64,000 nt of DNA from Candidatus Poribacteria bacterium (GTDB taxonomy: Bacteria; Poribacteria; WGA-4E; WGA-3G), in contig JAPPNJ010000187.1 of assembly GCA_028818705.1 (NCBI GenBank), forward strand, positions 59,180 to 123,179, written 5' to 3'. The notes beneath the pieces are model-generated. The model saw only the letters and a program-made list of their open reading frames with translations, did no database searches and had not been told where the DNA came from. This document shows positions 5,550 to 63,872 of this stretch, piece by piece. Numbering within the stretch: the stretch's first letter is position 1; each line of letters opens with the position of its first letter. Made by a program: the position numbers and the translations under genes.

Positions 5550-8500
5550 CTACTTCAAAATCACCATTTTCCGTAAGCGCGAGATGTCTCCTGCACGGAG
5601 TTGATAGAAATAGATACCACTTGCGACGCGTTCGCCGTGTTTATTTCTGCCGTCCCAATACGCAGCACGCGACTTTGCAACGTAATAACCGGCGGACTGA
5701 TGCCCGAGTTTTAGATGCCTGACAAGCCCGCCGCGTGCATCGTAGATGAATATCTCAACACTGCTGTCGGCGGCTAACTCGTAGGGAAGCCATGTCTCCG
5801 GGTTGAAGGGGTTCGGGTAGTTGGCAAGCAGGCGCGTCTCCGTCGGGCGGAGTGCTGCCAACAAACTTTCCAGCAGCACAATCGCCTTCTGGTACTTCAG
5901 TGAACCGTCGCTCTCAAGTCGGAGTTGATTGAGGTGCGTTTCCAACGTCTCGCGATCCAATGTGCGGAGGGTTTTGGCATCGAGGCGTGATAAGAGATTC
6001 TCTGGAGCTGGGGCGCCTGCGACGCCATCAAAGTTGGAGGTAACCAATAACACATCGGCGTTATTGACCGTTCCGTCGGCGTTGACATCCGTGCGCGGGT
6101 TGACGATCGCATCACCCGCCTGGCCTAATGCCGCTGTTACGAGTGTGGAATCGGCGGCATCCACCGTCCCGTCTTCGTTGACATCCCAAGGCGGATATTG
6201 AGAGACTTCAATATCAATATCAACCCGTCGAGCCCGCCGTGTCAATGGATAGAGTGGCGACGTGTTGAGAATCGGATTCCCCATGAGCCGCAGCGTCTCA
6301 AGATTTGCCAAGTCAAGGATCGGACCGACATCAGTAATACTGTTATTCGTCAGGTCCAAGCGAGCGAGCGACGTCAACGCCGTGAGCGGCGTTAGTGTGG
6401 TAATCGCATTATCGGCGAGTTCTAAGATTGTCAAAGACGTCAAACTTGACAACGGCGTGGTGTCAACAACAGCACTGTCATTGAGGCTTAGCATCGTTAG
6501 TCCTGTCAACCCGGCGAGTCCCGCCAGGTCGCCAACGGTATTCCCACTGAGATTCAGCTCCGTCAGTGCCGTCAGATTTGCCAGAAGCGCAATATCGGTG
6601 CTGCTCAATCCCGTCCTACCGAGTTCGAGTGTGGTGAGTGCGGTTAAGCCTGCGAGCGGTGTGAAATCAGCAATCGGGTTATCGTTGAGACTGAGCGTCG
6701 TGAGACGCGTTAGGGCTGCCAATGGAGAGATATCGGTAATGCGGTTCCCCGATAGATTCAACGCTGTCAGTTTGGTGAAATTCTCAAGGAGTGATATATC
6801 CATGAGTGCGTTGTTGCTGAGGTCCAACGTCGTCAGGCTCGTCAAATCTTCAAGTGCAGCGATACCCGTCAGCCCGTTCCCACCGAGATTCAAGGATGTC
6901 AGTCTCGTCAACCCTGCCAAGGGTGTGATGTCTGTGATTGCGTTGCCAGCGAGGTTGAGGGCCGTGAGTTTCGTCAGCCGTCGCAACGGTGTGAGATCCA
7001 TAATCTCATTTGCTGGAATCACCAAAGTCGTGAGCCTCGTCGCCTGTTCGACGCCTGTGATGTCAGAAATGCCAGTCATCTCAAACTCGAGCGTGGTAAT
7101 AGTTCTGAGCTGCTGTTGCGTGAAGTCTTCACCGCTACCGAGATTAAGTTGTTCTCGGAAAATATCTCTGAAGCTTGCATCCGGTATCCATTTCGGTGCG
7201 ACGGCGACCGTCTGTGGCATCGAGGCGGCGTTTGACTTCCCAGAGGCATCTTGTGCGACATTCGCAGGCACGGTAATAATCACATCACCGTCGGTATTTT
7301 TATCCGGGGTGATTGTCAACACATAGGTGCTACCGCTGCCGAGTAATGTCGAATTTCGCACAACTGCATCACCTGTAATCTCAATATCCCCGAGCACAAA
7401 GCCTTCCACGTCCTTTGAGAAGACAATCATCACAGAAAAGGCGTCAAGTTGAACGGTCTGTGGGACATCTTGAAGTTCAACCGTCAGTGCGTTAGTGTCA
7501 ATCGGAATCGGATCGGTCAGGTCAGAAGCGATATTGACATTCTCCGCCAGGTCCTCGACGACGGCTGCAGGTATCTGTAGGGTTATATTTCCGCTGGCGT
7601 TCGGATTCGGCGTGACGCGCGCCGTATAAGTTGCGTCGCCATCCGTCCCGGCGGTGAGTCGTACGGTTGCGGGGCCGACGAGTGCGATGTCCTCGGTTGT
7701 AAACCCGTTGACGACTTCGGAGAAGGTGATAGTGACATCAAAGGCATCACTCTTAGCACCCGTCGGCAGGTCGGCAAACTCGACTGTGGGTGCGATGGTG
7801 TCTATACGCACCTGTTGCTGCGTTTCCACCGAATCGGCATTCAGATTCAGGGCAAGATCCTGAACGGTTTCCGCATTGACTTCAATGAAGAGGTTTCCCT
7901 GAACATCCTCGTTGGGTGTCATCCGGACGATGTATTCACTTGCACCGTCGGCACCGGCTCGTAAACTCGGTGTTACGAGGTCCGAGGGTGTGAGGTCTCC
8001 GGGCACCCGAAAATCGTTGACCTCTTCTGAGAAGACGATTCGGATGTCAAAGAAATCGTTGCGTCTCTGTAGCACCGGGGTATCCTCGATGGTGAAGGTT
8101 GGAGGGATAGTGTCAATATGCACCTCAACGGGAGCCGATCCTGCCGGATTCGGATTTGTCGCGAAGTCTTGGATGGCATTTGCATTGACCGTAACCGTCA
8201 CATCGCCTTCAGAGGTTGCGTTCGGCGTGATGGTCACCGTATAAACCGTATCCCCATCTGAACCCGCTGTCAAGGCAGCCGTTCCAGGACCTGTGACTGT
8301 CAGATCCGCAGGCACCGCAAAACCGTTGACTTCCTCCGAGAACGTCACCGTTAAGTCATAAGGGGCGTTGCGTTCTTCAGTCGGATACCCGGTCTCCGCA
8401 CCTATCGTGACAGGTGGTGTAACAACCATCGAGACCGTCGGTGGAATCGTGTCCACATGCACCGAAGTCGTCTCTGGTGAAGCGGTATTGTCGTTGAGTG

Positions 8501-24365: not shown

Positions 24366-25664
24366 CTACTTGTTATTCTGCCCTCTTTTTTGGACGCGGA
24401 GAAATGCCGGGATTTCCCAATCTGTACTACCACGCTGCTGTGAATCCTTTCCGCGTGCTGGTCTGGATTGCCGCGTTTGAGGGGATTGTTCCTCTTGTTC
24501 TATAGGTGGTTCGGCGGGTCTCCGTCCACGCCCTGGAGCAACAGACCTGCTTGGCAGTGATCTGCCAGTGCTGGATCTGGTTCTGCTGGGAACTGGCGTA
24601 CGTTGTTCTTGTGTAGGAACAGGTTGTCTTTGATAAGCATCAACGTCGTCATACCGTGGGGCGTATTCTCTTTCCTGACCGGGGAAGATATCGGATATAT
24701 CAGAATCGAAACCTGTTGCGATGACAGTTACAAGGACTTCATCTCCAAGTTCTAATTCATCCTTGTAAACAAGACCGAAGATAATTTGTGCATCGGTGGC
24801 GGTGTCTTTAATGACTTGCATCGCTTCATCAAGTTCGTGCATCATGAAATCAGGGGGTGCGGTAATGTTGACAATCATCCCGATAGCTCCAGCGATGTTG
24901 GTCTGCTCAAGGAGCGGTGAGCTAATGGCTTGCTCTGCAGCGATTTGTGCGCGACTATCACCTGTTGCCCGTCCCATTCCCATCAACGCACTGCCTGCGT
25001 CTCGCATGATGGACTCAACATCAGCGAAGTCAACATTAATTTCGCCAGCTTCGGTGATGATATCAGAGATACTCTGAACACCATGGAGGAGGATTTGGTC
25101 TCCGATACGGAAAGCATCTCGAATTGGAAGTTTCCTGTCCATTGTGTCAATGAGGCGTTGGTTTGGTACAACAATTACAGAATCTGCTGCTGCGCGGAGT
25201 TCATCTAGTCCTGCTTCGGCTTGGTCTGCGCGACGTTGTCCTTCAAAGTTAAAGGGTCTGGTTACAACGCCAATAGTAAGGGCTCCACGCTCTCGTGCAA
25301 GCGAAGCGATGAGCGGTGCTGCCCCGGTGCCTGTACCGCCTCCCATACCTGCGGTGATGAAGACCATGTTGGCGTTTTCGACGATAGTTTGCAGCTGTTC
25401 TCTGTCTTCCTCAGCAGCCTTTCTACCAACATCGGGATTGGCACCAGACCCTAAGCCTTCGGTCGTGTTAACACCAATCTGGATTTGGGTAGCCCCGCGG
25501 CAAGTGAGTAGCGCCTGTTGATCTGTGTTAACGGCATAAAATTCTATACCGGTCAGACCTGCTTCAATCATTCGTTTGACGGCATTTCCACCTGCTCCGC
25601 CGACACCAACGACTTTAATTTTGGCGCGTAAGTTTTCAAATTCTTCTTGTTCAAATTCTATCAT
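24366..25664 (-). CDS. ftsZ: Cell division protein FtsZ
   Basis: 432 residues, normal for FtsZ. N-terminal GTP-binding domain with KVVGVGGAGGNAV (17-29) and the tubulin signature GGGTGTG (108-114); the T7 loop NVDFADV (210-216) supplies the catalytic acidic residue to the subunit below. A disordered basic linker (about 320-410) leads to a conserved C-terminal peptide with IPAFLRVQ, which binds FtsA. FtsZ polymerises with GTP into the division ring. It is the last division gene of the cluster, 198 bases after ftsA. A truncated FtsZ-like domain occurs fused to a sigma factor at 63243-63872. Confidence 0.98.
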   Translation of the reverse strand: MIEFEQEEFENLRAKIKVVGVGGAGGNAVKRMIEAGLTGIEFYAVNTDQQALLTCRGATQIQIGVNTTEGLGSGANPDVGRKAAEEDREQLQTIVENANMVFITAGMGGGTGTGAAPLIASLARERGALTIGVVTRPFNFEGQRRADQAEAGLDELRAAADSVIVVPNQRLIDTMDRKLPIRDAFRIGDQILLHGVQSISDIITEAGEINVDFADVESIMRDAGSALMGMGRATGDSRAQIAAEQAISSPLLEQTNIAGAIGMIVNITAPPDFMMHELDEAMQVIKDTATDAQIIFGLVYKDELELGDEVLVTVIATGFDSDISDIFPGQEREYAPRYDDVDAYQRQPVPTQEQRTPVPSRTRSSTGRSLPSRSVAPGRGRRPAEPPIEQEEQSPQTRQSRPARGKDSQQRGSTDWEIPAFLRVQKRGQNNK

Positions 25665-57105: not shown

Positions 57106-57639
57106 ATGACAGAAGATAAATTCCTTGAGCTTGTCCAAGAACACCAGGCTCAGATTTATCAGTATACGCTTTATCTACTCGGGAATCGGGAAGATGCGGA
57201 GGATATAACACAGGAGACGTTCATAAAGGCATGGGAACACCGTGCGAAATTACGTCTGAATACCGTCCGTTCATGGTTGCTAAAATGCGCGCAAAATCTC
57301 TGTTTCAACCTGTTAAAACGGCGCAAGTTTCAGGAACCTTTGGCAGAAGGAGATGAAGCAGAACTTGAAATGCTACTGCACAGGCATACACACCGGTCAA
57401 ATCCCTTGCCTGATGAACTTGTCATCAAGCAGGAACTTAAAGCGTCAGTGCATGATGCAATCAATAAGTTGTCGCCAGAGATGCGATCGGTTGTAATTAT
57501 GCGGGAATTGGAAGGTATGAGTTTCAAGGAAATCGCAGAGGTATTAGACCAACCCGAAGGTTCTGTGAAATCAACTGTATTCCGTGCCCGCAAGAGGTTA
57601 CGGGAACTACTGAGTTCCTACTGGAGAAACAACGAATGA
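57106..57639 (+). CDS. ECF RNA polymerase sigma factor (RpoE-like)
   Basis: 177 residues. Sigma region 2 (about 7-75: FLELVQEHQAQIYQYTLYLL, then NREDAEDITQETFIKAWEH, which binds the -10 and core polymerase) and region 4 (about 112-165: AINKLSPEMRSVVIMRELEGMS-FKEIAEVLDQPEGSVKSTVFRARKRL, the -35-binding helix-turn-helix). No region 3, as in ECF factors. Overlaps the anti-sigma gene by four bases (ATGA), so the two are coupled. Starts after GGAG and the ATG at 57106. Confidence 0.95.
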   Translation: MTEDKFLELVQEHQAQIYQYTLYLLGNREDAEDITQETFIKAWEHRAKLRLNTVRSWLLKCAQNLCFNLLKRRKFQEPLAEGDEAELEMLLHRHTHRSNPLPDELVIKQELKASVHDAINKLSPEMRSVVIMRELEGMSFKEIAEVLDQPEGSVKSTVFRARKRLRELLSSYWRNNE

Positions 57640-58316
57640 ACCACTTTCCTCTTCGTCAAGATTCATCTTGCATGGAAGTTCAGGATACCTTAGAGGCATA
57701 TCTCGCTGATGAATTGGATGCAGACACACACGCGATAGTGGAAGCGCACATTGCATCCTGTCCAAGGTGTCAAGATGAGATCCACTTTATCGAGGCAATT
57801 GATGAAGCATTACACGAACTTCCGAAACCGGAGCCGCCGCCAGAAATCTTTAATGCGGTTGCGGCTTATGTTCGCGCGCATCCGGACAAGCGTGAGCGGT
57901 GGTGGCATCGGCTATTTCAATTATTTACATTCTGGGATAATTTAACTTTGTCACTCGTTCGCGCAGGGGCACTGGTATGTCTCGTTGGGATTGTCCTGTT
58001 CGGCACCTATCAGTATCAACAACATAAAAAAATTATGCAAGTCTCCCGTGATTTGAATTATGCACTTAGCAAGTTGAATTTCGCAGTAGAAAGAACAAAT
58101 ATTGTAGTTAGCGAAAAACTTCCGGATGTGCGGATTAATGAGACTTCACATCGTCCGTTTGTTCAGATTGAAGAAGCTTCACGCCGGGCATTGAAACAGA
58201 AACAAAATATTTCATCAGCAATTCATAGGAGTTTAGATAGCCTTAACCAGTCACCTAAAAATGCTCTGGATCCGGAACGCGATCAAGACTCACAACAAGG
58301 AGGAAAAACACCATGA
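57636..58316 (+). CDS. Membrane anti-sigma factor with zinc-finger (ZAS) domain
   Basis: 226 residues. The ZAS motif HxxxCxxC is HIASCPRC (His 38, Cys 42, Cys 45), which holds the sigma factor inactive. One membrane helix (about 105-126, LSLVRAGALVCLVGIVLFGTYQ). An external region of about 100 residues follows, with coiled-coil character and little recognisable sequence. Overlaps both neighbours by four bases (ATGA each), a typical sigma/anti-sigma arrangement. Signal for release is unknown. Confidence 0.93.
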   Translation: MNHFPLRQDSSCMEVQDTLEAYLADELDADTHAIVEAHIASCPRCQDEIHFIEAIDEALHELPKPEPPPEIFNAVAAYVRAHPDKRERWWHRLFQLFTFWDNLTLSLVRAGALVCLVGIVLFGTYQYQQHKKIMQVSRDLNYALSKLNFAVERTNIVVSEKLPDVRINETSHRPFVQIEEASRRALKQKQNISSAIHRSLDSLNQSPKNALDPERDQDSQQGGKTP

Positions 58317-61102: not shown

Positions 61103-61168
61103 CTTGAGAGAAATGGGCGGTGCCGTTGTGCTCGCCCGTTTCCGACTCTTTTGAAAGGAGAAAATTTT

Positions 61169-62116
61169 ATGAAAGCCGTAGTGAAATGTAAATTTTATGC
61201 GATAATATTACTCGTTGCTGCATCATTAATGGTCGGTACTGCGATAAGCACTGATCAGACAGATGTGGTATCTACAGGAGATACTAAGCAGATGGCACAA
61301 AAACCGACACTCATGATTCTTGGCAGTGGACACTTGGCAAACTGGGGAGCAGACAGAATCAATTACAGAATGGATGACGTTCTCGCCCCCAAACGTCAAT
61401 CCGAACTTCAGCAACTTGCTGAGCAACTTGCCCAATTTAAACCAACTAAGATAACTGTTGAAGTTGACGAACGCTGAGATGCTGAACTGCAAGAGGAATA
61501 TAACGGTTACCTGAAGGGTAACTTTCAACTTGAACGCCATGAAATCCACCAGATTGGGTTCCGATTAGCGAAAATGATGGGACATCCAAAGGTCTATTGC
61601 GTGGATTATTTTCGCGATGATCCAATTGTTCGGGAGGATCGAGATGATCATTTGACAGATTGGGGCACGTTTGCGGAGGCGAACAATCAAAAGCACCTAT
61701 TGTCTGACGATGAGAAGATCGAAGGGAAAATTGTACAAGATGAAGAGGGTAGAACTTGGATTGTACCTGAAAAATACGAACCCTTGATTGACATGTATAT
61801 AAGAATGAACCAAGATGAAAAGATCCAAAAAAATCTCCGTGGCTACTTACGGATTGCCAGAATTGGTTCACAAGACCAGTATCCGGGTGCGAATTGGGTT
61901 GCACATTTTTGGTATCCAAGGAACCTCAAAACTTTCGTCAATCTCACCCGAATTACGGAATCAGAAGATGAGCGTATTTTGCTAATCATCGGTGCTGGGC
62001 ACTTGGGATTCCTTAGACAGATTGTGGAGGACTCTGAATTCTATCACTTAGAGAGTCCATTAGAATACTTGGAAGCAGGCGAGAAAGAAAGACCCTCAAC
62101 CGAGAGGGCCGATTGA
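61169..62116 (+). pseudogene. DUF5694-like exported protein interrupted by one in-frame TGA
   Basis: The frame from ATG 61169 (AAGGAG upstream; signal peptide with IILLVAASLMVGTA) runs to a TGA at 61475-61477 and continues, same frame, to 62116: 315 residues if read through. Before the TGA: LMILGSGHLANWGADR, DDVLAPKRQSELQQLAEQL, FKPTKITVEVDER. After it: DAELQEEYNGYLKG, HEIHQIGFRLAKMMG, and YCVDYF. These are the successive conserved blocks of DUF5694-type (TraB/GumN-related) proteins. The TGA lies at a variable, not a Cys, position, so a CGA-to-TGA nonsense change is the simplest explanation. A 6-bp hairpin (GTTACC/GGTAAC, 61506-61522) begins 28 bases after the TGA, so recoding cannot be excluded. 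Confidence 0.75.
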
Positions 62117-62218: not shown

Positions 62219-62412
62219 CAATCAGAATCAACGGTATCTATGCCTGTGGGCATGTAATCAGAATCAACGGTATGAAGCCCTTATGGGCTTCCCCGGGCAT
62301 TCACCGGGGGTATGAAGCCCGTGTGGCTTCCCCGTCCCCGCCTCTTATCAGGGGCTTTAAGAGGCGGTGAATGCCACACGGCATTCATACCGTTGATTGC
62401 GTAAGTCCTATT
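62219..62412. repeat. ATCAACGGTA-family palindrome cluster
   Basis: At least three AATCAACGGTA words with CTATGCC/GGGCATG-, GAAGCCC/GGGCTTC- and GAATGCC/GGCATTC-like arms and a large GAGGCGG/CCGCCTC fold. Ends with CGTTGATTGCGTAAGTCCTA, the right end of the 31089-31250 element. Together with a MITE-like right end at 62508-62535 and CCGAACAAG/CTTGTTCGG words (62441-62490) it fills the gap 62117-62660; no gene. Confidence 0.85.
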
Positions 62413-62660
62413 GAGTAATATCCCAACCTCTGGATGCCTGAACTTGTTCGGGAGTGTTTCACTGAGACGTGTCCCCAACAAGTTGGGGCATCCGAAAAGA
62501 GTCCCCGATTAAATTCTTAATCTTCATACAGTTTGTGGTACAATATGCTTGTCAGATTATTTCTCTCCCCACTATAAAAATTCTCAAGTGATTTATATTT
62601 TTTTAAACCCCCTTCCGAGAAATCTCACTCTTTAGGTTAAAACCCAATTGGGAATCGTTT

Positions 62661-63872
62661 ATGCAATACGATCTATTAACGCACAGTAATTCAACAGATG
62701 AAGAACTCATTCGGCTGGTTCAGACCGGTAATGAGTTAGCATTTATAGAGTTGATGTCGCGTTATGGTCCACGCATATCGAAAGTAGTTATTGCCAATTC
62801 GAGACAACACCGCGACGCTGAAGAAATCCTCATGGACATCTGGAGGGCTGTCTGGGAAAACATCGGTGGGCTGCGGCGTATCGAAAGTTTTGGTGGATGG
62901 TTGCAGCGTATTGCTTACAACGCTTGCAAGAGGTACTACACCTCTACCCGCCACTCAAGGAGTGGAATCCCGCACAGTTATGCTAACTTATCGGATCAGA
63001 TAGATCAAAATGCAGTTGCTCACTTCCGAGAAACGAAACTCCGCGAGAAAGCAAGAGAAGCAGTGCATCATCTGCCGGATAAAGTGCGCAGCGTAGCCGT
63101 GCTATACTACCTGAAATCGTGGAGTATCAAAGAGATCCACGCTGAACTCGGATTAGCGATAGGTACAATCAAAACAAGATTGAAACAGACGCGTGAACTC
63201 CTGCGCAAGGAGTTTGGTGTCGAACCTGAAAGAGGGAGAACTATGTCATCTAAACGTGAAGAATCGAAGCATCTCCATCCCAAAATCAAGGTGATCGGCG
63301 TTGGTGGAGCAGGCGGTAACGCTATCAAACGGATGATTGAAATCGGTATGACTGATACTGAATTTTACACCGTGGACGTAGTCAAGAAAGCACTTGACAA
63401 ACATACTGACACAATACCTGTACTGATTGGTGTCAACACCACGCCAGGATATTGTGGCGCGAATCCAGAGATGGGCAAACGGGCTGCCGAGGAAGATCGT
63501 GAGAAACTCCATTCCATTGTTGCGGATGCAGACATCGTTTTTATTGTAGCCGGTATGGGTGGTGGAACGGGAGCAGGTGCTGCACCTCTGATTGCCTCTC
63601 TTGCTCAAGAGCAGGGAGCTTTAGCGGTAGGTGTTGTAACGTGTCCGTTCAATTTTGAAGGTCAACGTCGCGCTGAACAAGCAGAACAGGGATTACAGGA
63701 ACTTCGAGAAAACGCTAATTCCGTTCATGTCGTGCCAAATCAGCGGTTGCTTGATTCGATAGAACAGAAGCAGAAACTGAAAATACGCGAGGCGTTCCGT
63801 CTCAGCGATGAAATGCTGCTCCGCGGTGTTGAAAGCATCTCGGAATTTTATTCCAGCACCATGCGAAATTAA
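62661..63872 (+). CDS. ECF sigma factor fused in frame to a truncated FtsZ GTP-binding domain
   Basis: 403 codons in one frame. Residues 1-186 are an ECF sigma factor: region 2 (about 14-82, DEELIRLVQTGNELAFIELM, DAEEILMDIWRAVWENIG) and region 4 (about 130-183, VHHLPDKVRSVAVLYYLKSW, SIKEIHAELGLAIGTIKTRL). Residues 208-395 are FtsZ: KIKVIGVGGAGGNAIKRMIE, AAEEDRE, the tubulin signature GGGTGAG (300-306), PFNFEGQRRA, VPNQRLLDS and GVESIS. It stops just before the T7 loop and lacks the C-terminal half. An ATG at 63243 (residue 195) with GAGGGAG five bases upstream could start a separate FtsZ-like protein where an anti-sigma gene normally lies. After the stop a +1 frame resumes EINRDIGADR, matching EINVDFADV of the T7 loop, so the end may have been cut by a one-base insertion. 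Confidence 0.85.
   Translation: MQYDLLTHSNSTDEELIRLVQTGNELAFIELMSRYGPRISKVVIANSRQHRDAEEILMDIWRAVWENIGGLRRIESFGGWLQRIAYNACKRYYTSTRHSRSGIPHSYANLSDQIDQNAVAHFRETKLREKAREAVHHLPDKVRSVAVLYYLKSWSIKEIHAELGLAIGTIKTRLKQTRELLRKEFGVEPERGRTMSSKREESKHLHPKIKVIGVGGAGGNAIKRMIEIGMTDTEFYTVDVVKKALDKHTDTIPVLIGVNTTPGYCGANPEMGKRAAEEDREKLHSIVADADIVFIVAGMGGGTGAGAAPLIASLAQEQGALAVGVVTCPFNFEGQRRAEQAEQGLQELRENANSVHVVPNQRLLDSIEQKQKLKIREAFRLSDEMLLRGVESISEFYSSTMRN

Follow-up and report, generated by a model that had tools for sequence, protein, structure and literature searches.

The control of ECF sigma factors by C-terminal extensions is an established mode of regulation, and a review of such sigma factors leaves FtsZ unmentioned (PMC8999054). 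In another context, the DnaE homologue NarR/NgnU has been proposed to act as a self-resistance decoy (PMC8922275), and in the CapRel-Gp0.4-FtsZ system FtsZ serves as a co-trigger of phage immunity (PMC13423816). Here, we report on a gene of the sponge-dwelling Candidatus Poribacteria in which an ECF sigma factor is joined to the N-terminal GTPase domain of FtsZ (FtsZN). The stretch analysed, called the window in the following, comprises 64,000 nucleotides of the forward strand (GCA_028818705.1, contig JAPPNJ010000187.1, 59,180-123,179), and its coordinates are used throughout. A preliminary description had recognized the fusion, whose conservation is confirmed here, but overlooked its internal ribosome-binding site and dedicated promoter, and also that the gene belongs to a wider family.

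Results

The single reading frame reported before, in which sigma regions 2 and 4 are followed by a linker and the FtsZ GTPase domain, is supported by the Pfam matches compiled in Table 1. PF04542 and PF08281 score above their gathering scores and TIGR02937 (sigma70-ECF) above its cut-off, and the sigma part is without regions 1 and 3, as expected by the ECF criteria. The match of PF00091 (Tubulin/FtsZ GTPase) covers residues 208-367 (E 1.1e-38). Pfam found no FtsZ_C (PF12327) in the fusion, and the alignment to the window's own FtsZ stops short of T7, hence the missing T7 loop and C-domain were correctly described. With a score of 217.5 the fusion also stays below the cut-off of the FtsZ equivalog TIGR00065 (295.2). 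Judged from these matches, the fused part is an FtsZ GTPase domain that lacks T7 and the C-domain and is not to be regarded as an FtsZ. In one AlphaFold model of the fusion (pLDDT 72, pTM 0.48, linker pLDDT <50) the FtsZ fold was confirmed, while the packing between the sigma and FtsZ halves was not confident; the nearest folds to the modelled FtsZ domain in Foldseek are FtsZ crystal structures (E 1.8e-16).

Table 1. Features of the sigma-FtsZ locus in window coordinates
Feature	Position	Strand	Remarks
Predicted ECF-type promoter TTTTAAACC-N18-CTCTTTA	62601..62634	+	From aligned upstream regions; 26 nt before start codon
Promoter boxes	-35 62601-62609; -10 62628-62634	+	-35 AAC-type
Sigma-FtsZ fusion gene	62661..63872	+	Single ORF, 403 aa, without internal stop
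Sigma-70 region 2	62751..62951	+	Residues 31-97, PF04542 (Sigma70_r2), E 4.8e-7
Sigma-70 region 4	63045..63200	+	Residues 129-180, PF08281 (Sigma70_r4_2), E 3.4e-8
Internal Shine-Dalgarno-like AGAGGGAG	63231..63238	+	Within linker codons; anti-SD duplex -8.5 kcal/mol
Predicted second product, free FtsZ GTPase domain	63243..63872	+	209 aa; internal ATG at 63243
FtsZ N-terminal GTPase domain	63282..63854	+	Residues 208-398, stops short of T7; Foldseek support
Housekeeping FtsZ, same genome (comparison)	24366..25664	-	PF00091 + PF12327 (FtsZ_C)

The fused domain shares 62% identity over 202 aa with the window's own FtsZ, in agreement with the close protein likeness noted before. The motifs GGAGGN (T1), T3, GGGTGAG (T4), PFNFEG (T5) and H7 are kept. 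However, among 24 aligned orthologues the T2 loop reads VDVVKK in the window gene and its closest relatives instead of the VNTD of FtsZ and most orthologues. The earlier claim of intact GGAGGN and GGGTGxG motifs holds, but with the altered T2 loop GTP binding by the window copy is less certain than this claim implied.

The joined architecture was found in other genomes, as the preliminary description had proposed to check. Full-length orthologues (the ~400 aa form) exist in 36 of the 38 genomes of the genus and in 8 of 18 of the sister genus, several of them on single-contig chromosomes, with 73-93% identity within the genus. No match at E 1e-70 came from the 26 genomes of the phylum that lie outside the family, and among 85,000 species genomes the only matches were from Poribacteria, with queries derived from the window protein that a distant, independent sigma-FtsZ fusion could escape. 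In trees of the FtsZ part (100/100) and of the ECF part (100/99) the ECF-FtsZN genes form a single clade, which in the FtsZ tree stands apart from housekeeping FtsZ. The locus is syntenic, with an ECF/zf-HC2/DUF4252 cluster and DUF5694 genes upstream and, in many genomes, ATP synthase genes downstream. Both halves of the fusion are under purifying selection (dN/dS 0.11-0.31 in the ECF half, 0.08-0.21 in the FtsZ half), which agrees with the earlier view that the protein has been kept as such. The fused domain evolves faster than its housekeeping counterpart; compared with genome G028, for example, identity is 76% for the former and 96% for the latter. Neither of the findings named beforehand as refuting, dN/dS near 1 and absence from any other genome, was obtained, since dN/dS ranges from 0.08 to 0.31 and many genomes carry the gene. 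Metagenome-assembled genomes can contain chimeras, and in G040 a stop has removed the DnaE part of a related ECF-FtsZ gene; nevertheless, an assembly artefact or a decaying pseudogene is rejected as practically inconceivable in view of the presence in 36 of 38 genus genomes including single-contig chromosomes and of dN/dS well below 1 for both halves.

No cognate anti-sigma gene adjoins the fusion. Its direct upstream neighbour encodes DUF5694, and the nearest zf-HC2 protein (57636-58313) pairs with another ECF (57106-57636). Therefore, it is plausible that a C-terminal domain occupies the regulatory position, and to this extent the suggestion that the FtsZ part replaces an anti-sigma factor can be maintained. 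As to the surroundings of the gene, the DUF5694 gene is split into two ORFs (61151-61477 and 61574-62116) in the window, and because intact tandem copies occur in related genomes (L263), the window copy may be broken. Translated stretches resembling INGMNAVWHSP flank the fusion on opposite strands (62281-62481, minus, and from 63884, plus), which suggests an inverted repeat or a small mobile element.

In the nearest paralogues, an ECF part of the same type stands in front of full FtsZ, FtsZ plus DnaE, DnaE, DnaN, PurC or WD40 repeats. Fusions with full FtsZ and DNA polymerase III alpha (DnaE) reach about 1350-1430 aa, and DnaE alone is found in L174. The ECF-DnaN proteins of this first clade contain three clamp domains, or two in the source genome's own C152:16813, which is without clamp domain I; the first-clade ECF-PurC protein of G023 has 496 aa, and a separate purC was not found in this 84% complete genome. 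DnaN is also joined to members of a second ECF clade, in many genomes close to the sigma-FtsZN gene; two genomes have PurC fusions whose assignment to this second clade was judged from sequence. The DnaE parts are truncated, and two of them have lost a catalytic Asp (PDIFIDF, PDINIDF). At a fixed locus of the order TatD / sugar-permease / X / ABC binding protein / M23 peptidase, the source genome has sigma-DnaN as X, and G023 has sigma-PurC plus sigma-FtsZ; elsewhere X seems to be sigma-FtsZ or sigma-FtsZ-DnaE according to matching upstream sequence. The ECF tree places the sigma fusions with DnaN and PurC inside a well-supported clade that also holds the FtsZ and FtsZ-DnaE fusions (100/100). 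The different partners at one locus together with this nesting point to partner exchange. Since the same sigma clade is joined to DnaN, DnaE, PurC and WD40, the general rule is a sigma factor with a core-protein copy attached. The same diversity, together with the changed T2 loop, weakens the sensing of the GTP level as sole function, and the GTP level as the particular signal, one of two proposed in the preliminary description, is not supported.

Several further arrangements were noticed in these genomes. ECF-PurC (SAICAR synthetase) fusions occur in three genomes in all (L304:5356-6846, minus strand; G021:C60:125531-127030; G026:C41:37179-38732), two apparently of the other ECF clade. Genus g2 is without these sigma fusions and has a DnaN-FtsZ fusion (~690 aa) with a gene for a sigma-54 AAA+ activator directly after it (G038 L258:6926-9007 and 5686-6762, both minus strand; G041 L259/L235). 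This activator is without an N-terminal sensor domain. The same partners stand here alongside a different kind of regulator. The source genome also contains a separate large ECF group (L005, L009, L013, L016 and others) with long C-terminal parts, in which the ORFs comprise 850-1050 aa and apparently include a membrane-spanning stretch. In addition to the housekeeping clamp gene, many of these genomes have two or three extra dnaN genes in tandem (for example G005:C1:6354766-6357177 and G054:C118:485504-488925).

The promoter pattern listed in Table 1 precedes, with few changes, nearly all paralogues and is located about 26 nt before the ATG in orthologues and paralogues. Counting perfect matches, the 6 Mb source genome contains two, before the sigma-FtsZN gene and the sigma-DnaN gene. 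The 38 genus genomes contain 84 exact matches when a spacing of 16-20 is allowed, 80 of them with spacing 18, and the reversed pattern gave none in the same genomes. The matches that were followed up lie mostly before fusion genes, and a further part is found repeatedly upstream of genes for MacB-type and ABC-2 permeases and for WD40 proteins. The assumption that the promoter controls fusion genes only thus holds for the perfect matches of the source genome but fails in its relatives. Self-regulation is the natural reading of a family-wide promoter before the fusion genes, and we infer with considerable confidence from these patterns that the sigma factor drives transcription of both its own and the sister genes, i.e. 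amplifies itself.

The internal start at 63243, mentioned in the preliminary description, proved to be a genuine and conserved signal. Its ATG (M195) is invariant in the 24 aligned orthologues and in all examined FtsZ and WD40 paralogues, and a purine-rich Shine-Dalgarno sequence with a start codon was present at the partner junction of all fusions examined. Its position is the same for first-clade FtsZ, WD40 and PurC partners (M195/196), and in DnaN fusions it lies directly before the clamp's own first Met. The mean anti-SD energy of the family junctions is -8.9 kcal/mol compared with -1.4 (sd 2.35) for 535 other in-frame ATGs. In the window gene the internal start (-8.5) exceeds the first start of the fusion gene (-4.2), and the genome's own DnaN, PurC and DnaE genes have starts of equal strength. 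Synonymous change amounts to 7% at codons 187-194 versus 36-38% elsewhere in the gene, and the 8-codon window from codon 186 shows the lowest value of 394 windows (1.7%), with only the gene's first codons being comparable. Moreover, the junction amino acids differ among paralogues (ERGRTM, IREGIM, PIRRGTM, KRETTM) and the Shine-Dalgarno is constant. By these patterns, the internal Shine-Dalgarno is conserved at the RNA level. The conserved Shine-Dalgarno and start codon suggest that each mRNA probably gives rise to two products, the sigma-partner protein and the free partner, here sigma-FtsZN and free FtsZN.

Such an arrangement might be taken as a disguised operon, in which the sigma gene and the downstream gene came in frame by chance and the separate products matter while the fused protein is incidental. 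The presence of a start codon and an own ribosome-binding site for every partner would fit. However, the full-length fusions examined, which represent two ECF clades and several partners, are all free of a stop between the halves, whereas a useless fusion should lose its frame randomly, which makes this explanation unlikely. It might also be that the partner is the output, with a self-amplifying sigma factor driving a modified division or replication protein that is merely tied to its activator by the fusion; here, a filament-capping FtsZN would arrest or reshape division. The sole perfect promoter matches of the source genome, before the sigma-FtsZN and sigma-DnaN genes, would then mark the partner as main product, and the stronger internal start would favour its free form. 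On the other hand, the open frame through the sigma part in all genomes would be left unexplained, and an inhibitory role is not obvious for full FtsZ, intact PurC or truncated DnaE, hence we regard this possibility as rather improbable.

Discussion

Taken as a working model, which we prefer tentatively and which may well fall short of the truth, a self-amplifying ECF sigma factor would be gated through its on-board copy of a core protein by the machine to which that protein belongs. The captured FtsZ GTPase domain would be the C-terminal regulatory module of the sigma factor. FtsZN keeps the GTP-side face but is without T7, and it is conceivable, with less certainty, that genuine FtsZ offers it a docking site on the T7 face. 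Such docking might set the amount of sigma factor that is free for RNA polymerase, the sigma activity might in this way report the state or amount of FtsZ, and free FtsZN might compete for the same sites and thereby set a threshold. Sister sigma factors would report likewise on clamp, polymerase or PurC, and the output would consist of further copies of these proteins together with, in related genomes, the ABC-type permeases whose genes carry this promoter. In this regard, FtsZN without T7, sigma-DnaN without domain I and DnaE truncated and, in two fusions, deprived of a catalytic Asp indicate that the partner probably binds rather than catalyses; its catalysis appears dispensable, and a binding or sensing role is favoured. 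Against this model speak the changed T2 loop of the window copy, the AlphaFold model without confident packing between the halves, and PurC, a soluble enzyme that suits an assembly-state signal less well than FtsZ or DnaN.

The fused FtsZ, DnaN, DnaE and PurC copies could instead be integrated baits, i.e. decoys for toxins, antibiotics or phage proteins, and an inhibitor bound to the bait would release or activate the sigma factor and thus induce permeases and more bait. Inhibitors that target FtsZ, DnaN and DnaE are known (griselimycin binds DnaN, nargenicin binds DnaE), a dnaE homologue has been proposed as decoy in the nargenicin producer (PMC8922275), and a complex of a phage protein with FtsZ activates a bacterial immune protein (PMC13423816). 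The partners are often truncated or catalytically altered, they are swapped at one locus, and MacB/ABC-2 permease genes lie behind the same promoter, all of which would be in line with baits. However, the FtsZN fusion is syntenic, chromosomal and present in nearly all genomes of the genus with dN/dS about 0.15, whereas defence genes are patchy and fast-changing; furthermore, the PADLOC defence models gave no match and scans of viral contigs returned no relatives. We therefore consider baits rather unlikely. If extended to a bacterial counterpart of an integrated-decoy receptor, in which vital-target baits on sigma factors respond to a bound inhibitor or phage protein with the expression of their own genes and export pumps and the internal start delivers a free decoy, the idea becomes unlikely.

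Two related candidates were rejected. A phage origin found no support, because scans of IMG/VR with the window protein and an ECF-FtsZ-DnaE protein returned no relative; phage records match the FtsZ part alone, with <60% identity. A known defence gene was dismissed on the basis of the PADLOC and viral contig results given above.

Returning to the gated sigma factor, the machinery of division, replication and nucleotide supply would, if the model is true, be linked with transcription directly, with no anti-sigma factor in between, and the coupling of gene expression to the state of division ring or replisome would become testable with single proteins. The repeated capture in two ECF clades with one consistent two-start layout speaks for a general principle and against an isolated oddity. 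The sigma fusions to FtsZ, sliding clamp, DNA polymerase and a purine enzyme suggest a new way to tie expression to core machinery. As anticipated in the preliminary description, no published sigma-FtsZ fusion was found in the literature searched, and the same applies to sigma-DnaN, sigma-DnaE and sigma-PurC in a search of mainly open literature in which PurC was not queried by name. The extension class and the two-start layout of these ECF sigma factors appear to be undescribed.

Compared with known systems, the fusion shares with FtsZ (TIGR00065, PF00091 + PF12327) the GTPase domain with T1, T3, T4, T5 and H7, but differs by the missing T7 loop, C-domain and tail and by forming its own clade. 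Like NarR/NgnU, it represents a second copy of a replication or division protein that is possibly a decoy; however, NarR and NgnU are free enzymes in antibiotic clusters, whereas the copies described here are fused to sigma factors. CapRel-Gp0.4-FtsZ would share the use of FtsZ to report an attack on division, but there it is the free housekeeping FtsZ and the responder is a toxin-antitoxin fusion instead of a sigma factor. The ECF sigma factors with C-terminal extension (PMC8999054) have the same layout, a single chain in which a C-terminal domain after sigma regions 2 and 4 takes the position of the anti-sigma factor, and the window fusion resembles them in having no adjoining anti-sigma gene and an extension conserved in orthologues. 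Unlike in these proteins, the extension is here a copy of a division, replication or purine-synthesis protein and is equipped with an internal start signal.
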